Of a DNA stretch of 64,000 nt, positions 177-15,289 are shown one piece after another. The position numbers and the translations under genes are program-made. Origin of the DNA: Leeuwenhoekiella aequorea (GTDB taxonomy: Bacteria > Bacteroidota > Bacteroidia > Flavobacteriales > Flavobacteriaceae); assembly GCF_004104375.1 (NCBI RefSeq), contig NZ_QOVM01000007.1, positions 62,001 to 126,000 on the forward strand, written 5' to 3'. The notes beneath the pieces are model-generated. The model was not told the origin of the DNA, made no database searches, and saw nothing but the letters and a program-made list of their open reading frames with translations. Each line of letters opens with the position of its first letter. The stretch's first letter is position 1.

Positions 177-1127
177 TTAATTGAGGTTCTCTAAAATTGA
201 TTTGAGAATTACCTGAGCAGAATAGGTTCTATTATTTGCTTGTTCAATCACTACCGAATTCTTTCCATCTAAAACACTATCGGTAACGATTACATTTCTT
301 CTTACCGGAAGACAATGCATAAACCTGGCTTCTCCTAACTTCTCATCAGTTATTGTCCAACTCGTGTGAGAATCTGTTGTGGCAAGCACTTTGCCATAAT
401 TCTCATAGTTACTCCAGTTCTTCACGTAGACGAAGTCTGCATCCTTTAATGCTGCATCCTGATCATATTCTACTACCGAATCTTTTACAACAGCCTTATC
501 CAGTTCGTAGCCTTTGGGATGTGTGATCGTGAAATCGACATCCATTTTCTGCATCATTCCTATAAATGAATTTGCTACGGCGTGAGGTAAAGCTTTAGGA
601 TGTGGCGCCCAACTTAAAACCACTTTGGGCTTTTTCTTTTTTGCCAATTCTGTAATGGTAATGGCATCTGCAAGTGCTTGCAAAGGATGAGCTGTTGCAC
701 TTTCCATATTAACAATAGGAACACTCGCATACTTAACAAAACTAGAAATTACATATTCAGATTCATCTTTAGCTTTATCCGTTAGAGTAGGAAAAGCGCG
801 TACAGCAATAATATCTGCATATTGAGAAATCACTTGAGCAGCCTCTTTAATATGCTCTGACGTATCTGCATCCATAACAGTACCATCTTCAAATTCTAAT
901 TTCCAGGCATCACTATTAAAGTTCATAACCGTGACATCCATTCCCAGATTGCTTGCAGCTTTTTCTGTACTTAACCGGGTGCGTAAGCTAGAGTTAAAAA
1001 ATAGCATTACAAGGCGCTTGCGCTTACCCAGTTGCTCATAAGCGTATGGATTATTTTTAAGTTCGCGCGCTTGCGCGATTAGTTCTTGTAGATCTGTAAT
1101 GTCGTCTAAACCAGTGTATTTTTTCAT
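177..1127 (-). CDS. argF': N-succinylornithine (or N-acetylornithine) carbamoyltransferase
   Basis: A 316-residue transcarbamylase of the ArgF' type, which acts on N-acylated ornithine and replaces the ornithine carbamoyltransferase of the classical route. The carbamoyl-phosphate motif SLRTR is at residues 47-51, HPLQAL is in the middle and HCLPVRR is near residue 270. The DADTSEHI segment puts Ser at residue 90, the site where acetylornithine enzymes have Glu and the Bacteroides fragilis succinylornithine enzyme has Pro. Published mutants at this site show that Ser or Pro gives succinylornithine preference, so a succinyl substrate is the better guess. It is in the arg operon between argD and argB. 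Confidence 0.93.
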   Translation of the reverse strand: MKKYTGLDDITDLQELIAQARELKNNPYAYEQLGKRKRLVMLFFNSSLRTRLSTEKAASNLGMDVTVMNFNSDAWKLEFEDGTVMDADTSEHIKEAAQVISQYADIIAVRAFPTLTDKAKDESEYVISSFVKYASVPIVNMESATAHPLQALADAITITELAKKKKPKVVLSWAPHPKALPHAVANSFIGMMQKMDVDFTITHPKGYELDKAVVKDSVVEYDQDAALKDADFVYVKNWSNYENYGKVLATTDSHTSWTITDEKLGEARFMHCLPVRRNVIVTDSVLDGKNSVVIEQANNRTYSAQVILKSILENLN

Positions 1128-1178: not shown

Positions 1179-2312
1179 TTATATTTTTTCTAGTTCTATT
1201 TTAAGTGCATCAAAAAACTGATCAATATGCACATTTTGCACTGTTAATGGCGGAAGTATGCGTATAAGATTCTTATTCTTTGCGCTTCCTGTAAAAATAT
1301 GTTGGTCGTAAATAAGTTGTTTTCTCAATGCTGAAGTATCAAAATCAAATTCAATTCCTAACATCAATCCACGTCCTTTTACACCTTTGATTTGAGGAAA
1401 ATCTAATGCCCTGGCATTAAAATGATCTGAAACCCGAAGGGCATGTTCCAGAAGGTTCTCTTCTTCTAAAACTTCAAGAACTGTTAGTGCCGCAACACAA
1501 GCCAGGTGGTTTCCTCCAAAGGTTGTTCCCAACATCCCAAATTCTGCATCTATTGAAGGATGAATTAAAATGCCTCCAACTGGGAAACCATTACCCATAC
1601 CTTTTGCCATCGAGATTAACTCTGGCTGTACATCGTACTCTTGGAATGCAAAAAATCTTCCTGTACGCCCAAAGCCAGCTTGAACCTCATCGGCGATAAG
1701 CATTGTTCCGGTTTGCTTGCACAATTTATCAATCCCTTCGTAAAATTCTTTTGTGCTTATATCTAAACCTCCTACTCCCTGAATAAACTCTACAATTACT
1801 GCACAAACATCACCTTTAGCAAGTACACCTGCTAACGCATCAAGATCACCTAGTGGTAAAAACTCAACCTCCTGTTGTGCATTTATTGGAGCAACAATCT
1901 TAGGATTATCTGTAGCTGCAACTGCGGCAGATGTGCGCCCGTGAAAGCTATTGTTAAAGGCAACAACCTTTTTTCTTCCTGTAACAAAAGAGGCTACTTT
2001 AAGTGCATTCTCATTAGCTTCTGCTCCGCTACTACACATAAATAGCTGATAATCTGGACATCCAGATTGAACCGGTAAACGTTCTCCAAGTGCTTCTTGC
2101 AATGGATTGTGCACTGCATTGCTATAAAACCCAATATCTCCTAATTGCTTTGTTAAATTCTCCACATATTTAGGATGCGAGTGACCTATAGAAATCACAG
2201 CGTGACCTCCATATAAATCCAGATACTTAGTAGGTTTTGAATCATAAACCCAAACATCCTGAGCTTTTATCGGGGTTACGTCATACAACGGGTAAACATC
2301 AAATAGACTCAT
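1179..2312 (-). CDS. argD: N-acylornithine aminotransferase
   Basis: A 377-residue class III PLP-dependent aminotransferase. Visible features are the SSGAEAN phosphate-binding loop (residues 94-100), FHGRT near 123, Asp209 in ADEVQ contacting the PLP ring nitrogen, and the Schiff-base lysine Lys237 in MAKGMG. In arginine synthesis the family converts N-acyl-glutamate semialdehyde to N-acyl-ornithine with glutamate as amino donor. Its start codon overlaps the proC stop by one base (TAATG), so translation is probably coupled. Length and operon position make the ArgD role firm; the acyl group (acetyl or succinyl) cannot be read from this protein. Confidence 0.95.
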   Translation of the reverse strand: MSLFDVYPLYDVTPIKAQDVWVYDSKPTKYLDLYGGHAVISIGHSHPKYVENLTKQLGDIGFYSNAVHNPLQEALGERLPVQSGCPDYQLFMCSSGAEANENALKVASFVTGRKKVVAFNNSFHGRTSAAVAATDNPKIVAPINAQQEVEFLPLGDLDALAGVLAKGDVCAVIVEFIQGVGGLDISTKEFYEGIDKLCKQTGTMLIADEVQAGFGRTGRFFAFQEYDVQPELISMAKGMGNGFPVGGILIHPSIDAEFGMLGTTFGGNHLACVAALTVLEVLEEENLLEHALRVSDHFNARALDFPQIKGVKGRGLMLGIEFDFDTSALRKQLIYDQHIFTGSAKNKNLIRILPPLTVQNVHIDQFFDALKIELEKI

Positions 2313-3112
2313 TATTTCTGATCAGATTTTATAATATTAATTTTATTAAAAGAAGCTACCATCCCTTGAATTAGAGAAGAACTCAAGCCTTTATGTTCCA
2401 TTTCATTTAAACCTTCAATCGTACAACCCTTAGGTGTTGTAACACGATCAATTTCTTCTTCGGGATGATTTCCCGAATCTATAAGCAATTTTGATGCTCC
2501 ATTACACGTATGCATAGCCAATTCTTGTGCTTCCTTTGCGTCAAATCCCAGTTGTATAGCAGCCTGAGTAGTCGCACGAATCAGTCGCATCCAAAAGGCA
2601 ATACCGCTTGCGCAAACTACAGTAGCTGCCTGCATTTGAGTTTCAGGAATAATCAAACTATTTCCCAAACGATTAAAAATAGCCTCTGCAATTTTTATAC
2701 GCTTCATTCCTTTTTCATTACTGGCAAGACAGGTCATCGATGCGCCCACTGCAATTGCTGTGTTAGGCATTGCACGCACAATATATTGATCTGTACCTAC
2801 AATTGCTTCAATTTGAGAAATTTGATATCCTGTAATGGTGGATATAAGAACATGTTTATCTGTAAGATGATCTTTTATGTCATTTAAAATAGCACTTAGT
2901 TGCGCTGGTTGAACTGCAAATATTAAAATATCAGACTTCTGTACTGCCTCTACGTTATCTGAAGTAACATACACATTTTTATACTCTGCATAAGATGCTA
3001 TTGCCTCGGGATTACGACGAGTCATAAATAATGAGGTAATTGCATTATTTGTTATCAGCCCCTTGGCTATTGAAAGGCCTAGATTACCAGTTCCTATAAT
3101 TGCTATTTTCAT
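2312..3112 (-). CDS. proC: Pyrroline-5-carboxylate reductase
   Basis: The translation beginning MKIAIIGTGNLGLSIAKG carries the N-terminal NAD(P) Rossmann motif GTGNLG and the C-terminal ProC signature region around TPKGCTIEGLNEMEH. The enzyme reduces pyrroline-5-carboxylate to proline. An upstream in-frame ATG at 3151 would add 13 residues, but they precede the Rossmann strand and have no family counterpart, so I chose 3112 (266 residues). The gene sits between argC and argD, so proline and arginine synthesis share a transcript. The 122-base gap to argC contains a small stem, TTTCGC/GCGAAA. Confidence 0.93.
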   Translation of the reverse strand: MKIAIIGTGNLGLSIAKGLITNNAITSLFMTRRNPEAIASYAEYKNVYVTSDNVEAVQKSDILIFAVQPAQLSAILNDIKDHLTDKHVLISTITGYQISQIEAIVGTDQYIVRAMPNTAIAVGASMTCLASNEKGMKRIKIAEAIFNRLGNSLIIPETQMQAATVVCASGIAFWMRLIRATTQAAIQLGFDAKEAQELAMHTCNGASKLLIDSGNHPEEEIDRVTTPKGCTIEGLNEMEHKGLSSSLIQGMVASFNKINIIKSDQK

Positions 3113-3234
3113 ATACTGTCCTTTATGTAAATTTCGCGAAGGCGAAAGCAACCCCTTTTATAGTGTCATTATTGCTTAAATAATTCTTTTTTATAACTTC
3201 CGATTGTGCTCTTCAACTAATCTTATAGAAATTA

Positions 3235-4212
3235 TTAAAAATAGCTGCCCTTAAGGTTAAGCCCTTCAACCTGCGGAAGCCCAAAGATAAGATTCATATT
3301 TTCTACTGCTTGACCAGATGCTCCTTTTAAAAGATTATCTATACAACTTGTAATTAACAATTGACTTCCTTGTTGGTGTAAATGAATCAGGCATTTATTA
3401 GTATTTACTACCTGTTTCATATGTATTTCTGCATCTGAGACAAACGTAAACGGAGCATCGGCGTAATAGTCTTTATACAAATTTTTTATCTCATCAAATA
3501 CGCCATCAAACTTGGTATATGCAGTTGCAAAAATTCCTCTGGAAAAATTTCCACGATTAGGCAGAAAAAATAATTCTTTATCAAAACCAGATTGAAGTTG
3601 AGCTACAGTCTGATTAATTTCACCCATATGTTGATGTGTGAATGGTTTGTAATATGAAAAGTTGTTATCTCTCCACGTATAATGAGTAGTCGCAGAAAGT
3701 GAAGTACCCGCACCAGTTGCACCTGTAACAGCATTTATATGGATGTCATTTGATATTTTTCGTGCATCAGCTAAGGGCAATATCGCTAACTGAATCGCTG
3801 TAGCAAAACAGCCGGGATTTGCAATAGATCCGGCTTGCTTTATAGCATCTCTATTAAGTTCTGTCAAACCATATACAAACTCTCTACCTTCAAAATCTGC
3901 ATCTGCTTTTAATCGAAAATCATTACTTAAATCAATAATAACAGTAGATTCAGTAAAGTTATGTTCCTTTAAGAATGCTTTGGAATTTCCGTGACCTAAA
4001 CATAAAAAAACTACATCTACAGAAAAATCAATTGTGTCTGCAAAACGTAACGATGTGCTTCCTATCAAATCCTGATGCACATCACTAAGCAAGTTTCCGG
4101 CATTAGAGGTGCTGTAAACAAAACTCAATTCTACAAAGGAGTGGTTTAATAAAATACGCAACAGTTCTCCTGCTGTATATCCTGCGCCACCTACTATACC
4201 TGCTTTAATCAT
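3235..4212 (-). CDS. argC: N-acyl-gamma-glutamyl-phosphate reductase
   Basis: A 325-residue NADPH-dependent reductase. The N-terminal GGAGYTAGELLR motif (residues 8-19) is the ArgC dinucleotide loop and Cys135 in ANPGCFAT is the catalytic thiol that forms the acyl-enzyme. It reduces N-acyl-glutamyl phosphate to the semialdehyde, the step between ArgB and ArgD. Its start codon overlaps the end of argG by four bases (ATGA), which implies translational coupling. Identity is firm. Confidence 0.96.
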   Translation of the reverse strand: MIKAGIVGGAGYTAGELLRILLNHSFVELSFVYSTSNAGNLLSDVHQDLIGSTSLRFADTIDFSVDVVFLCLGHGNSKAFLKEHNFTESTVIIDLSNDFRLKADADFEGREFVYGLTELNRDAIKQAGSIANPGCFATAIQLAILPLADARKISNDIHINAVTGATGAGTSLSATTHYTWRDNNFSYYKPFTHQHMGEINQTVAQLQSGFDKELFFLPNRGNFSRGIFATAYTKFDGVFDEIKNLYKDYYADAPFTFVSDAEIHMKQVVNTNKCLIHLHQQGSQLLITSCIDNLLKGASGQAVENMNLIFGLPQVEGLNLKGSYF

Positions 4213-5396
4213 GAGTTTCCGTTTACGTGATTGTAAATTTTATTTTGGTTTCCGGTGATTTTTATAAATCCTTTTGCATCGTCGGCTGTCCATCCCTTAT
4301 TCATCTCGCCATATGCCCCAAAAGATGCATTCATCAAATCGTGATCAGATTTTATACCTTCCAAAGTAAATCGATAGGGATGTAATGTTACATACACATC
4401 ACCTGATACATTTTTCTGACTATCTTCTAAGAAGGCTTCCATATTACGCATAGCCGGATCTAAATATTGACCTTCATGTAAATGCATTCCATAAAAATTA
4501 GCTAGATAATCTTTATGCTGCATTTGCCATTTTGTAAGCGTATGCTTTTCTAATAAATGATGCGCTTTAATTATTATCACTGGTGCGGCCGCTTCAAAAC
4601 CTACGCGACCCTTTATCCCTATAATGGTATCTCCTACATGAATATCCCGACCTATACCAAAAGGTGCCGCTAATTTTTGCAGGGTTTCAATATTCTCTAC
4701 GGCACCGGCAGTCTTGCCATTTACCGCTGTTAATTCGCCTTTTATAAATGTTAAAGTAACTTGTTCTGACTCGGTTTTTTCTACTTGTGAAGGAAAAGCA
4801 GATTCTGGCAATCCTTGATGAGAAGTTAAGGTCTCACTACCTCCTACACTTGTTCCCCATAGCCCACGGTTTACAGAATATTTTGCTTTCTCCCAAGCCA
4901 TCTCCACACCGTGACTTTTTAAATAATCGATTTCCGCCTGTCTTGAGAGTTGTAAATCTCTAATAGGAGTAATGATTTCAATTTCTGGAGCAAGTGTTTG
5001 AAAAATCATATCAAAACGAACTTGGTCATTGCCAGCGCCCGTACTTCCGTGAGCAACATATTGTGCATCTATCGATTTTGCATAGTTTATAATCTCAACA
5101 GCCTGAATAATACGTTCTGCACTTACTGAAAGAGGGTAAGTATTATTTTTTAATACGTTACCATAAATTAAATTCTTGACAACCTTATCATAAAAGCGAT
5201 CTACAGCTTGAATATTTTTATAGGTTTTAGCTCCTATTTTTAAAGCTTTAGACTCTATTTCGTCAATTTCTTCCTGACTAAAACCCCCTGTATTAATACT
5301 TACAGCATGTACTTCAAATCCTTTTTCTTCAGATAGATACTTAGCGCAATAACTTGTGTCAAGACCGCCACTATAGGCGAGAACTAATTTTTTCAT
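4209..5396 (-). CDS. argG: Argininosuccinate synthase
   Basis: A 395-residue ATP-dependent ligase that joins citrulline and aspartate to argininosuccinate. The N-terminal ATP pyrophosphatase loop SGGLDTS is at residues 9-15, and the citrulline/aspartate motifs HGSTGAGNDQVRF and NRGLWGTSVGG are present. Finding argG upstream of argC is common in Bacteroidota arg clusters. The 41-base gap to the preceding acyltransferase gene holds a short palindrome (5414-5431) that could fold between the two messages. Confidence 0.96.
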   Translation of the reverse strand: MKKLVLAYSGGLDTSYCAKYLSEEKGFEVHAVSINTGGFSQEEIDEIESKALKIGAKTYKNIQAVDRFYDKVVKNLIYGNVLKNNTYPLSVSAERIIQAVEIINYAKSIDAQYVAHGSTGAGNDQVRFDMIFQTLAPEIEIITPIRDLQLSRQAEIDYLKSHGVEMAWEKAKYSVNRGLWGTSVGGSETLTSHQGLPESAFPSQVEKTESEQVTLTFIKGELTAVNGKTAGAVENIETLQKLAAPFGIGRDIHVGDTIIGIKGRVGFEAAAPVIIIKAHHLLEKHTLTKWQMQHKDYLANFYGMHLHEGQYLDPAMRNMEAFLEDSQKNVSGDVYVTLHPYRFTLEGIKSDHDLMNASFGAYGEMNKGWTADDAKGFIKITGNQNKIYNHVNGNS

Positions 5397-5437: not shown

Positions 5438-6082
5438 TTAATCTTGTTTCTTTTTATCTTTTTTCAAGAACAAATGTTCTTTAATACTTTTTAACCGTGT
5501 AAAAGCTTTTGGATTCATTTGCTTAACGTCTTCAGGTATAAGCATTTTTTTCTGCTCTTCTTTTGCAGGATCATATAACATTCCCGTACACAAACACATT
5601 TTTTGCTCGGTACGCTGTAAAATATCATAATTACGACAGGTTTGGCAGCCTTTCCAGAACGTAGGATCATCAGTAAGTTCTGAAAAGGTTACGGGACGAT
5701 ATCCCAAATCTGAATTAATTTTCATAACGGCAAGACCCGTAGTGATACCAAAAACTTTTGCATCTGGATATTTATGGCGAGAGTGTTTAAAAATGGCCTC
5801 TTTAATTTGCCGTGCAAGACCACTGCCTCTATAGTCAGGGTGTACAATAAGACCACTATTTGCGACAAATTTGCCATGTCCCCAAGCCTCGATGTAACAG
5901 AAACCAGCAAATTTATCACCATCAAGTGCTATAACAGAATTTCCGTTTTCCATTTTGGTGATTACGTACTCTGGTGTGCGTTTTGCAATACCTGTACCAC
6001 GTACCTTAGCCGATTCTGCGATCGTATCGCATATATATTGTGCATATCCCGCATGGGATTTATTTGCAATAGTAATTTCCAT
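5438..6082 (-). CDS. GNAT-family acyltransferase heading the arg operon
   Basis: A 214-residue GNAT protein. The acyl-CoA pyrophosphate loop YRGSGLARQ is at residues 84-92. After the GNAT fold there is an unusual C-terminal region with Cys146, Cys149, Cys163 and Cys165 (CxxC...CxC), which could bind zinc. It is the first structural gene after the arginine-codon leader ORF and is co-directional with argG. No argA or argJ is visible in the window, and arginine synthesis needs an enzyme to acylate glutamate. I therefore infer that this may be the N-acetyl- or N-succinylglutamate synthase, but the sequence alone does not prove the substrate. Confidence 0.8.
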   Translation of the reverse strand: MEITIANKSHAGYAQYICDTIAESAKVRGTGIAKRTPEYVITKMENGNSVIALDGDKFAGFCYIEAWGHGKFVANSGLIVHPDYRGSGLARQIKEAIFKHSRHKYPDAKVFGITTGLAVMKINSDLGYRPVTFSELTDDPTFWKGCQTCRNYDILQRTEQKMCLCTGMLYDPAKEEQKKMLIPEDVKQMNPKAFTRLKSIKEHLFLKKDKKKQD

Positions 6083-6171
6083 ATTCTTTTGAATTGGAAG
6101 TTAGAAAAAAAGTGAAATTGATATTGAAGACGGAACCGGACTCACCTAAGTTCCCAAGAAAACTGCACCCA

Positions 6172-6306
6172 CTAGGGGCGGCGACGCTCATGACGGCGTA
6201 CAGGAATACATACCAAAGAAGTATGGGTCTCAACTGGATACAATGACAAAACAGCAGCCTTGATAGCGTGCTTCAGTACATTTATATGTAAGTTTATTCC
6301 TTTCAT
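6172..6306 (-). CDS. Arginine-rich leader peptide of the arg operon
   Basis: A 44-codon ORF begins MKGINLHINV and ends PVRRHERRRP followed by TAG. Five of the last eight codons are Arg (CGC CGT, then CGT CGC CGC), and this stretch is GC-rich in an otherwise AT-rich gap. The ORF ends 89 bases before the acyltransferase start. Such a run of cognate codons before an amino-acid operon is the hallmark of a leader peptide whose translation senses charged tRNA-Arg. The stop codon lies inside a CCC-TAG-GGG stem (6165-6179), and a second small stem (GGAAC/GTTCC, 6132-6154) follows. Expression and mechanism are inferred. Confidence 0.7.
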   Translation of the reverse strand: MKGINLHINVLKHAIKAAVLSLYPVETHTSLVCIPVRRHERRRP

Positions 6307-6322
6307 TTATTCTGCTAAAGTA

Positions 6323-6348
6323 CAAAGTAGATTTAAATGACAGTCCAA
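6323..6348 (-). promoter_or_regulatory. Candidate promoter of the arg operon
   Basis: On the minus strand TACTTTG (6323-6329) resembles the Bacteroidota minus-7 element TAnnTTTG with one base missing, and a TTG lies 16 bases upstream (6346-6348). Transcription would begin near 6316, about ten bases before the leader ATG. Confidence 0.45.
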
Positions 6349-6380
6349 TAATGCCTGAAAATGTCAAATAAATCTACTTT
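6324..6380. repeat. 12-bp inverted repeat flanking the arg promoter
   Basis: AAAGTAGATTTA (6324-6335) and its exact reverse complement (6369-6380) are separated by 33 bases. One arm covers the proposed minus-7 element and the other lies just upstream of the minus-33 region. This is the geometry of a pair of operator half-sites, though a regulator cannot be named from the sequence. Confidence 0.45.
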
Positions 6381-14928: not shown

Positions 14929-15289
14929 TTTTTTAAATCTATACCGAAATTAATTAATCCTGTTTTTAAGTCTATCATAACTAAAAAGCTTTGAATATAT
15001 CAGATTAAGAATAAAATTATATATTTTACTGAATATCAATTTATTAACCTAAAAATACTACTACGCCCAACTCATAAAATCTATTTAAAATTCCTCCTAT
15101 AATCTATTTACAGGTAGTTAATTTTCAAAAAAAAACCTCCTAATTAAGGAAGTTTAAATTTGCTTATGCGAGAGACTACTACTTTAAATAGGAACGGTTT
15201 CTTTTAGTTCTTAAACTGATTTTTTCTACATTCAAAATTATTTAATTTAAAAGCTATCAACTCCAAATCAGCCGTCAAATGCCATCTCT
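14929..15289 (-). promoter_or_regulatory. Long 5' leader of the ilv operon
   Basis: About 360 bases separate the proposed promoter from ilvD. The first half ends in a terminator hairpin (15127-15155); the 190 bases after it are AT-rich with no gene. Near the 5' end GAGAGA can pair with TCTCTC just upstream of the terminator, giving a possible alternative fold. The only peptide-like reading of the region (containing KVVVSRIS and ending inside the terminator loop) has no start codon, so I do not call a leader peptide. From 15319 to 15547 I see nothing further. Confidence 0.45.
15127..15155 (-). terminator. Intrinsic terminator / attenuator in the ilv leader
   Basis: On the minus strand AAACTTCCT pairs with AGGAGGTTT (one G-U) around a five-base loop, followed by a run of nine T. 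It lies about 200 bases before ilvD and well downstream of a promoter-like sequence, so it would end most transcripts unless antitermination occurs. It is more than 390 bases past the preceding gene, so it is not simply that gene's terminator. Confidence 0.7.

Follow-up and report, generated by a model that had tools for sequence, protein, structure and literature searches.

In the classical trp, his, leu and thr attenuators, the regulated amino acid is abundant near the end of a leader peptide, which lies upstream of the operon for that amino acid and overlaps an RNA hairpin. The same leader layout was found for arginine in a 64,000-nt stretch of the genome of Leeuwenhoekiella aequorea (RefSeq GCF_004104375.1, contig NZ_QOVM01000007.1, positions 62,001 to 126,000; hereafter the window, with positions counted from its first letter), in which a short Arg-rich open reading frame (ORF) and two hairpins precede an arg operon on the minus strand. 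The element is best explained as a cis-acting arginine sensor read by the ribosome, that is, a ribosome-mediated attenuator of the arg operon, an explanation which we regard as probable. With amino-acid leader-peptide attenuators as a class it shares clustered codons for the end product in a short ORF before the respective operon, and its end is conserved as codons in one frame only (ratio of nonsynonymous to synonymous change, pN/pS, 0.41). In contrast to the trp type, no long U-tract follows the hairpin (136 leaders) and no mutually exclusive terminator and antiterminator pairing is conserved (RNAalifold, 135 leaders). The arg element would work like an amino-acid attenuator but is not of the strict trp type. 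The results support its placement as an arginine variant of the known leader-peptide attenuators, with a larger architecture than was seen in an earlier prediction made from the letters of this DNA (the original prediction).

Peptides that act on the ribosome translating them offer a further comparison. SpeFL is an arrest peptide that responds to ornithine, and TnaC ends in Arg-Pro-stop. Both are short leaders controlled at the last codons and the stop, as the arg leader would be, but the latter has no conserved upstream residues (codons −28 to −10), and in 29 of 137 leaders the stop is displaced. The arginine attenuator peptide of fungi is eukaryotic and acts through nascent-peptide arrest by free arginine; it is likewise an upstream peptide tied to arginine supply and to a gene of the arginine pathway, and no homology is expected. 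In Staphylococcus aureus, the Arg codons of rbfL sense arginine limitation through ribosome pausing, according to the available part of the report (PMC13009471). Arg codons of a leader peptide as the arginine sensor are thus a likeness between rbfL and the reading proposed here. As far as that part goes, rbfL differs in having two Arg codons (AGA and AGG), in covering the rbf ribosome-binding site, and in its target, which is a biofilm regulator and not arginine synthesis.

Within the same bacterial family, the Bacteroid-trp leader (RF01692), which the accessible text of PMC6414381 places before trp genes, gave matches at E ≤ 0.001 in 43 of 60 genomes, and in 37 of these the match is over the Rfam cut-off. 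It likewise has a short ORF that contains codons of its end product, which read TGGTGGTGG in the loci inspected. The arg element differs in its A-bulged UGNGU hairpin with no more than a short U-tract and in its frequent second leader, and the Bacteroid-trp model gave no match to arg leaders at gathering scores in the window and 12 related loci. The genome of L. aequorea itself has a Bacteroid-trp leader over the cut-off (contig C8:47528–47647).

The original prediction held that leader attenuation was little described for arginine or in Bacteroidota. Neither arginine leader control of arginine synthesis in Bacteroidota nor tandem leaders were among the matches listed in the open-licence PMC literature. 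For the phylum the statement is too broad, since amino-acid leaders are known there: besides Bacteroid-trp, the part available of a Flavobacterium psychrophilum transcriptome study gives clues to leader-peptide attenuation before amino-acid operons, with the amino acids not named (PMC9723704). Short ORFs reminiscent of leader peptides are also mentioned for Bacteroides (PMC7366714). The word arginine is absent from the main text, as accessible, of PMC2864571, which lists Bacteroid-trp.

Distribution of the Element and Its Tie to arg Operons

A DNA search with the leader gave matches in 15 of 60 genomes including its own, and in 11 of the 13 genomes of the genus. Alignment of these matches revealed a hairpin 3′ of the stop codon, GGAAC-UUAGGUGAGUCC-GGUUCC (hairpin 2). 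As a pattern with up to three mismatches it was found in 55 of 299 family genomes with a single match each, against one match for the backward control. In the loci read, it is preceded, with variants, by codons of the CGY CGC CCG type and a small hairpin around the stop (hairpin 1). A covariance model (R1) was built from 56 sequences, the window leader (L001) being among the training rows. With this model the unit of second Arg cluster, hairpin 1, spacer and hairpin 2 was located in 181 of the 299 Flavobacteriaceae genomes, once in each, and in 149 of 236 genera.

The presence of the unit follows that of the acyltransferase gene which opens the operon. Both are found in 178 genomes, the unit alone in 3, the acyltransferase alone in 19 and neither in 99, so that 178 of the 197 genomes that have the acyltransferase carry the unit, as against 3 of the 102 that do not have it. 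It also stands at 80 of 80 loci selected by acyltransferase similarity alone; because these are the best 80 of 539 relatives, that count is biased to near relatives and 178 of 197 is the fairer figure. In two of the three genomes with the unit only, it lies before another first gene, followed by argG (L209 = G119 and L210 = G186). Pfam identifies the substituted gene of L210 as a GNAT and gives no match for that of L209, where an argC-like gene also comes next. Since the unit is retained in these two exceptions although the gene between it and argG is another one, the tie of the element is to the arg operon. Its occurrence in 181 of the 299 sampled genomes suggests that it may be a main control of arginine production in many Flavobacteriaceae.

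Several weaker candidates were set aside. Eleven weak R1 matches outside the family (order search, E 0.004–0.09) were taken as chance; the eight weak out-of-family matches inspected were unlike the element, some being terminator- or coding-like by eye. A 26-nt DNA match (L015) is probably not the element, and R1 puts the copy of that genome on a different contig. On inspection by eye, eight of nine other AGGTGNGTCC sites in the genome of L. aequorea lack the stem of hairpin 2, and the element therefore seems to be present there as a single copy. A scan of the window and 12 related loci against Rfam at gathering scores gave no family match, and all matches of the window leader at a relaxed E-value were far under the gathering scores and taken as chance.

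Conservation of the Arg Codons

The leader ORF of 44 codons ends in PVRRHERRRP-stop, with Arg at five of the final eight codons and its stop 89 nt before the acyltransferase ATG (6082). This is as the original prediction had described it, with the minus strand to be added. At least five Arg in the final eight codons are found at only 3 of the 4251 stops in the window that have eight open codons upstream (both strands, all frames).

For the comparison across the family, 144 model rows (80 acyltransferase loci, the window and 63 others) were reduced to 137 distinct leaders; the omitted loci were intended as repeat or same-genus copies or controls. The reading frame was taken from the structure alignment and was moved by hand in L085 and L090 for an alignment slip. 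On average, the last ten codons contain 3.95 Arg in frame (minimum 2), and 0.26 and 0.20 in the two alternative frames. A stretch of 29 codons is open in 132 of the 137 leaders, versus 20 and 11 for those frames. The final two Arg codons encode Arg in 123 and 133 leaders, and the codon after them is Pro in 121 and Thr in 10. Further Arg positions are codons −6 (73 leaders), −5 (65) and −2 (53).

In 33 independent pairs, pN/pS of the last ten codons is 0.41 for the reading frame, versus 1.71 and 1.46 for the two others. Codons −28 to −10 give 0.63 versus 0.91 and 0.81, and their differences at codon positions 1, 2 and 3 number 95, 93 and 98. As judged from these comparisons, frame-specific selection is clear only at the end of the leader, with the Arg codons seen by selection and the remainder hardly. 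The weak constraint on codons −28 to −10 is what would be expected if the Arg codons, and not the peptide, are read.

Start codons cluster at codon −29 (17 ATG, 44 TTG and 8 GTG of 130), which corresponds to a peptide of 31 residues. Of the 137 leaders, 108 have a start (ATG, TTG or GTG) within codons −30 to −27. Among those with a second leader upstream the count is 84 of 86, versus 1–4 of 86 in other intervals of four codons. The Leeuwenhoekiella leaders are longer, with 44–46 codons. The stop comes directly after the Pro codon, or after the codon that takes its place, in 108 leaders. Among the 29 exceptions, 28 continue two to ten codons further and one (L157, Nonlabens ulvanivorans JCM 19298, around 2390–2452) has its Arg-rich end frameshifted beside a G run. 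A sequencing error is a possible cause, given that the frame is intact in L136, from strain PLR of N. ulvanivorans.

CGT and CGC make up 490 of the 541 leader Arg codons. The acyltransferase genes at the 80 relative loci have 594 Arg codons, of which these two make up 189 and AGA is the commonest (275). Since the leader uses mostly CGC and CGT, a single tRNA-Arg isoacceptor may be read.

The proposal of a translation-sensing leader for arginine is thereby supported at the level of comparison: the Arg-rich end is kept family-wide, in frame, with synonymous change and directly before arg operons. The check proposed in the original prediction, namely whether relatives in Flavobacteriaceae keep the ORF and its Arg codons, came out positive in the 181 genomes, the 80 loci and the Arg content given above. 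We consider it very probable that the element is a leader which senses arginine through its Arg codons.

RNA Hairpins

Hairpin 2 is, by the alignments, the most conserved part of the element. It was overlooked in the original prediction, to which the Arg-rich leader further upstream in relatives was not visible. The outer stem covaries, with a first pair of G-C in 28, G-U in 12, A-U in 7 and U-A in 3 of the 56 model rows. In 136 leaders, from which L177 was left out because its core falls outside the search pattern, the bulge has 1–2 nt in 126, and its last base is A in 131. GG/CC makes up the inner pairs in 134 and GA/UC, a compensatory change, in two, and the loop is UGNGU in 135 and CGAGU in one; the loop and inner-pair counts are conditional on a search pattern that admits only G[GA][UC]GNGU[CU]C cores. 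The distance from the Pro codon to hairpin 2 is 18–22 nt in 128 of the 136. The AGGUGA within the hairpin, which is complementary to the 16S tail, was considered as a Shine–Dalgarno-like site, and this was dropped because the third loop base varies (A 107, U 20 and C 9 of 136).

Hairpin 1 has a stem of the type GCCC/GGGU, in which C-G is changed to A-U at one pair in 5 of the 56 model rows. The CCC/GGG hairpin of the original prediction does exist in the window (6166–6180), but the leader stop, which had been put in its stem, lies in the loop. The same holds for 108 of 137 leaders because the stop directly follows the Pro codon. In single-sequence folding, hairpin 1 stands out against shuffles with a mean z of −1.88.

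RNAalifold recovered hairpin 2 without any structure supplied. Over 135 leaders (L157, for its frameshift, and L177 left out), where hairpin 2 has pair probabilities of 0.87–1.0, it gave hairpins 1 and 2 and nothing else, within a model that excludes pseudoknots and to which a poorly alignable hairpin 0 is invisible. The latter lies within the leader ORF, just 5′ of the first Arg cluster. The equivalent segment of relatives folds better than shuffles, with a mean z of −1.59 versus −0.22, 0.23 and 0.25 for flanks (n = 137). By its position, hairpin 0 might serve as a pause hairpin that keeps polymerase and ribosome in step.

A Second Leader in Relatives

A second Arg-rich ORF (LP1) lies upstream of the leader ending in RRP (LP2) in 90 of 137 loci (for instance L129, L067, L138 and L122), versus 1 of 137 when the search interval was placed 300 nt further up. 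LP1 was defined by at least three Arg in the last eight codons and a stop 115–165 nt before the last Arg codon of LP2; by this criterion it was not found in the window. An ATG start is present in 82 of 88 LP1, and 72 of 88 have 20–24 codons. The motif TAnnTTTG, which we take to be the −7 promoter consensus, occurs within 45 nt upstream of LP1 in 34 of 88 cases, versus 3 for the reversed motif and none for the same motif 100 nt further up. Given this enrichment, the transcript probably begins right before LP1. In the interval 80–190 nt upstream of the final Arg codon of LP2 the box is not enriched (13 of 137 leaders, against 15 for the reversed control).

The two leaders are also connected at the RNA level. 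The early codons of LP1 (often AAAAATAAAATACGT) pair with a U-rich strand just 5′ of the LP2 start. The mean duplex energy of this helix (P1) is −11.55 for own strands versus −8.18 for swapped ones, and in 34 of 86 loci the own-strand duplex ranks in the top 5% when compared with 40 swaps. The start codon of LP2 is 38–58 nt past the LP1 stop in 84 of 86. Four poorly placed LP1 (L088, L097, L098 and L183) were left out of the helix, spacing, pN/pS and 86-locus counts. The last ten codons of LP1 have a pN/pS of 0.76 in frame versus 1.34 and 1.49, weaker than in LP2, and the preceding ten 0.69 in frame with 1.10 and 0.62 in the other frames.

Tentatively, the tandem loci might form a two-stage sensor, in which the progress of the ribosome on LP1 gates LP2, and LP2 gates the operon through a new, factor-read control hairpin (A-bulge and UGNGU loop); we would give this somewhat poorer than even chances. 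If so, Leeuwenhoekiella might have the second stage only, which is held with equal reserve.

Proposed Mechanism and Alternatives

Comparative support, drawn from the aligned sequences, covers the in-frame Arg-codon end, hairpins 1 and 2, their spacing and the link to the arg operon. For translation in the cell, stalling, the direction of regulation and the action of hairpin 2, we infer the following course. Transcription would begin just upstream of the leader, and a ribosome would translate the leader behind the RNA polymerase, as frame conservation and the start codons suggest. Near the end of the leader it would have to decode two clusters of CGY Arg codons, and the conservation of these clusters points to them as the place of stalling. 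With charged tRNA-Arg scarce, the ribosome would stall there and, by the geometry of the locus, cover the segment of hairpin 1, which would stay open. With plentiful arginine, it would finish and depart, so that hairpin 1 could form with hairpin 2 free. Hairpin 2, at a fixed distance behind hairpin 1, would act as the stop signal of the operon. Shortage of arginine would therefore turn the arg operon on.

Since the element has no complete intrinsic terminator and no conserved antiterminator, the stop would be a factor-assisted premature termination, by Rho or by an RNA-binding protein at the A-bulge and UGNGU loop. It is favored over covering of the start codon because the gap between hairpin 2 and the gene reaches about 130 nt (L171). 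We lean slightly toward an action of the sensor on transcription, and a role of hairpin 2 as a factor-dependent stop is conceivable, at less than even odds.

Several observations weigh against the attenuator. Two of the 13 genomes of the genus have no DNA match to the leader, and 19 of the 197 with the acyltransferase (e.g., G068, G104, G145 and G162) have no detected element. The 238-nt leader of the window folds no better than shuffles as a single sequence (z 0.44), and the structural evidence is for this reason comparative; hairpin 2 itself is not unusually stable (mean z −0.42). No alternative pairing is conserved in the 135 leaders, since RNAalifold, when hairpin 2 is forbidden, leaves hairpin 1. 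There is also no full U-tract 3′ of hairpin 2 in 136 leaders, where U exceeds 0.5 only at +2 to +5 and A-rich sequence follows. In the 20 Bacteroid-trp loci read, by contrast, the leader contains WWW and the terminator-like hairpin has a T-run behind it. Finally, the preference of the leader for CGY is less of a contrast with the own genes of the window (64 of 120 in nine genes, CGT being the commonest with 40) than with those of relatives.

The missing terminator and antiterminator would fit a post-transcriptional switch, in which a ribosome that stalls or terminates on the leader would govern either the decay of the mRNA or the synthesis of the acyltransferase from it, and hairpin 2 would be a site for a nuclease or protein, with no early termination. 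A precedent is the Arg-codon leader rbfL of S. aureus, which acts on translation by the available part of its report (PMC13009471). However, in the window the acyltransferase start is separated from the leader stop by 89 nt and from hairpin 2 by 49 nt, distances too great for it to be covered directly. The roughly 130 nt from hairpin 2 to the ATG in L171 count in the same way against covering, though not against decay, and we judge such a switch rather unlikely. The position of the stop, directly after the Pro codon or the codon that takes its place in 108 of 137 leaders (Pro 121, Thr 10), could instead belong to a nascent-chain sensor, where the finished peptide ending in RRP stalls the ribosome at the stop with free arginine (or ornithine) bound, and the peptide rather than tRNA charging is what senses. 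Such arrest is induced in TnaC by free Trp, as stated in the accessible part of PMC8429421. Yet 29 of 137 leaders do not have the stop there, and codons −28 to −10, whose residues the exit tunnel would contain, are hardly conserved as protein (95/93/98), which makes this sensor improbable.

The leader might also be a pure RNA element, either a riboswitch or a protein-binding leader, whose Arg codons are the by-product of a C/G-rich motif. The most conserved bases are indeed those of hairpin 2 and of the codons beside hairpin 1, and hairpin 1 overlaps the last Arg codon. The conserved RNA, compared with a riboswitch, amounts to two small hairpins. Against it, neither hairpin 1 nor hairpin 2 includes the first Arg cluster, whose codons change synonymously while Arg is kept, pN/pS is frame-specific, the frame is open with a fixed start-codon position, and relatives have a second Arg-rich ORF upstream, so that this alternative is very improbable. 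A functionless chance ORF is hardly credible at all: short ORFs are common and single-sequence folding is unremarkable, but the unit is kept in 149 of the 236 sampled genera of the family. The arginine attenuator, thus favored, raises two questions, namely what reads hairpin 2 if it is no terminator, and what purpose two leaders in series have.

Gene Context and Other Observations

The features of the locus are collected in table 1. An aldehyde dehydrogenase gene, also on the minus strand, lies upstream of the leader. The putative −7 box of the leader has one mismatch to TAnnTTTG.

Table 1. Leader, RNA and gene features of the arg locus in the window
Feature	Position	Strand	Remarks
Leader peptide ORF	6172..6306	−	44 codons, ATG start, TAG stop; MKGINLHINVLKHAIKAAVLSLYPVETHTSLVCIPVRRHERRRP
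Possible −7 promoter box TACTTTAG	6315..6322	−	8 nt 5′ of leader ATG; from sequence only, weak
Hairpin 0	6209..6226	−	6 bp; equivalent segment in relatives folds better than shuffles
First Arg cluster, V-R-R (GTA CGC CGT)	6193..6201	−	From sequence; of 137 leaders, 73 have Arg at codon −6 and 65 at codon −5
Second Arg cluster and stop, R-R-R-P-TAG	6172..6186	−	Last two Arg kept in 123 and 133, Pro in 121, of 137
R1-matched extent (second Arg cluster, hairpin 1, spacer, hairpin 2)	6131..6190	−	61.3 bits
Hairpin 1, CGCCC(CUAGU)GGGUG	6166..6180	−	Leader stop codon within loop
Hairpin 2, GGAACUUAGGUGAGUCCGGUUCC	6132..6154	−	6-bp stem, UA bulge, 2 bp, UGAGU loop; compensatory changes
GNAT-family acyltransferase, first arg operon gene	5438..6082	−	Pfam PF00583, above cut-off
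argG, argininosuccinate synthase	4209..5396	−	TIGR00032, above cut-off
argC	3235..4212	−	TIGR01850, above cut-off
proC-like pyrroline-5-carboxylate reductase	2312..3151	−	TIGR00112, above cut-off
argD-like acetylornithine-family transaminase	1179..2312	−	Best match TIGR00707, under its cut-off
argF′, N-acetylornithine carbamoyltransferase type	177..1127	−	NF003384, above cut-off

Just upstream of the possible leader promoter there is an inverted repeat, AAAGTAGATTTA ... TAAATCTACTTT (6324–6335 and 6369–6380), which is also present in those aligned Leeuwenhoekiella loci that extend far enough. By its sequence it could be a candidate operator. One further exact copy of TAAATCTACTTTG is found in the genome of L. 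aequorea (C1:825701).

Another candidate leader in the window lies in front of ilvD (start 14928). At 15152–15127 of the minus strand, nine T follow on a terminator-like hairpin, and just before this hairpin one frame contains a Val-Val-Val stretch (...KVVVSRISKFKLP-stop). In addition, an ORF of 29 codons with a TTG start, five Ile and four Leu (15039–14950) lies just before ilvD. Judging from these features, the region is a possible attenuator for branched-chain amino acids.
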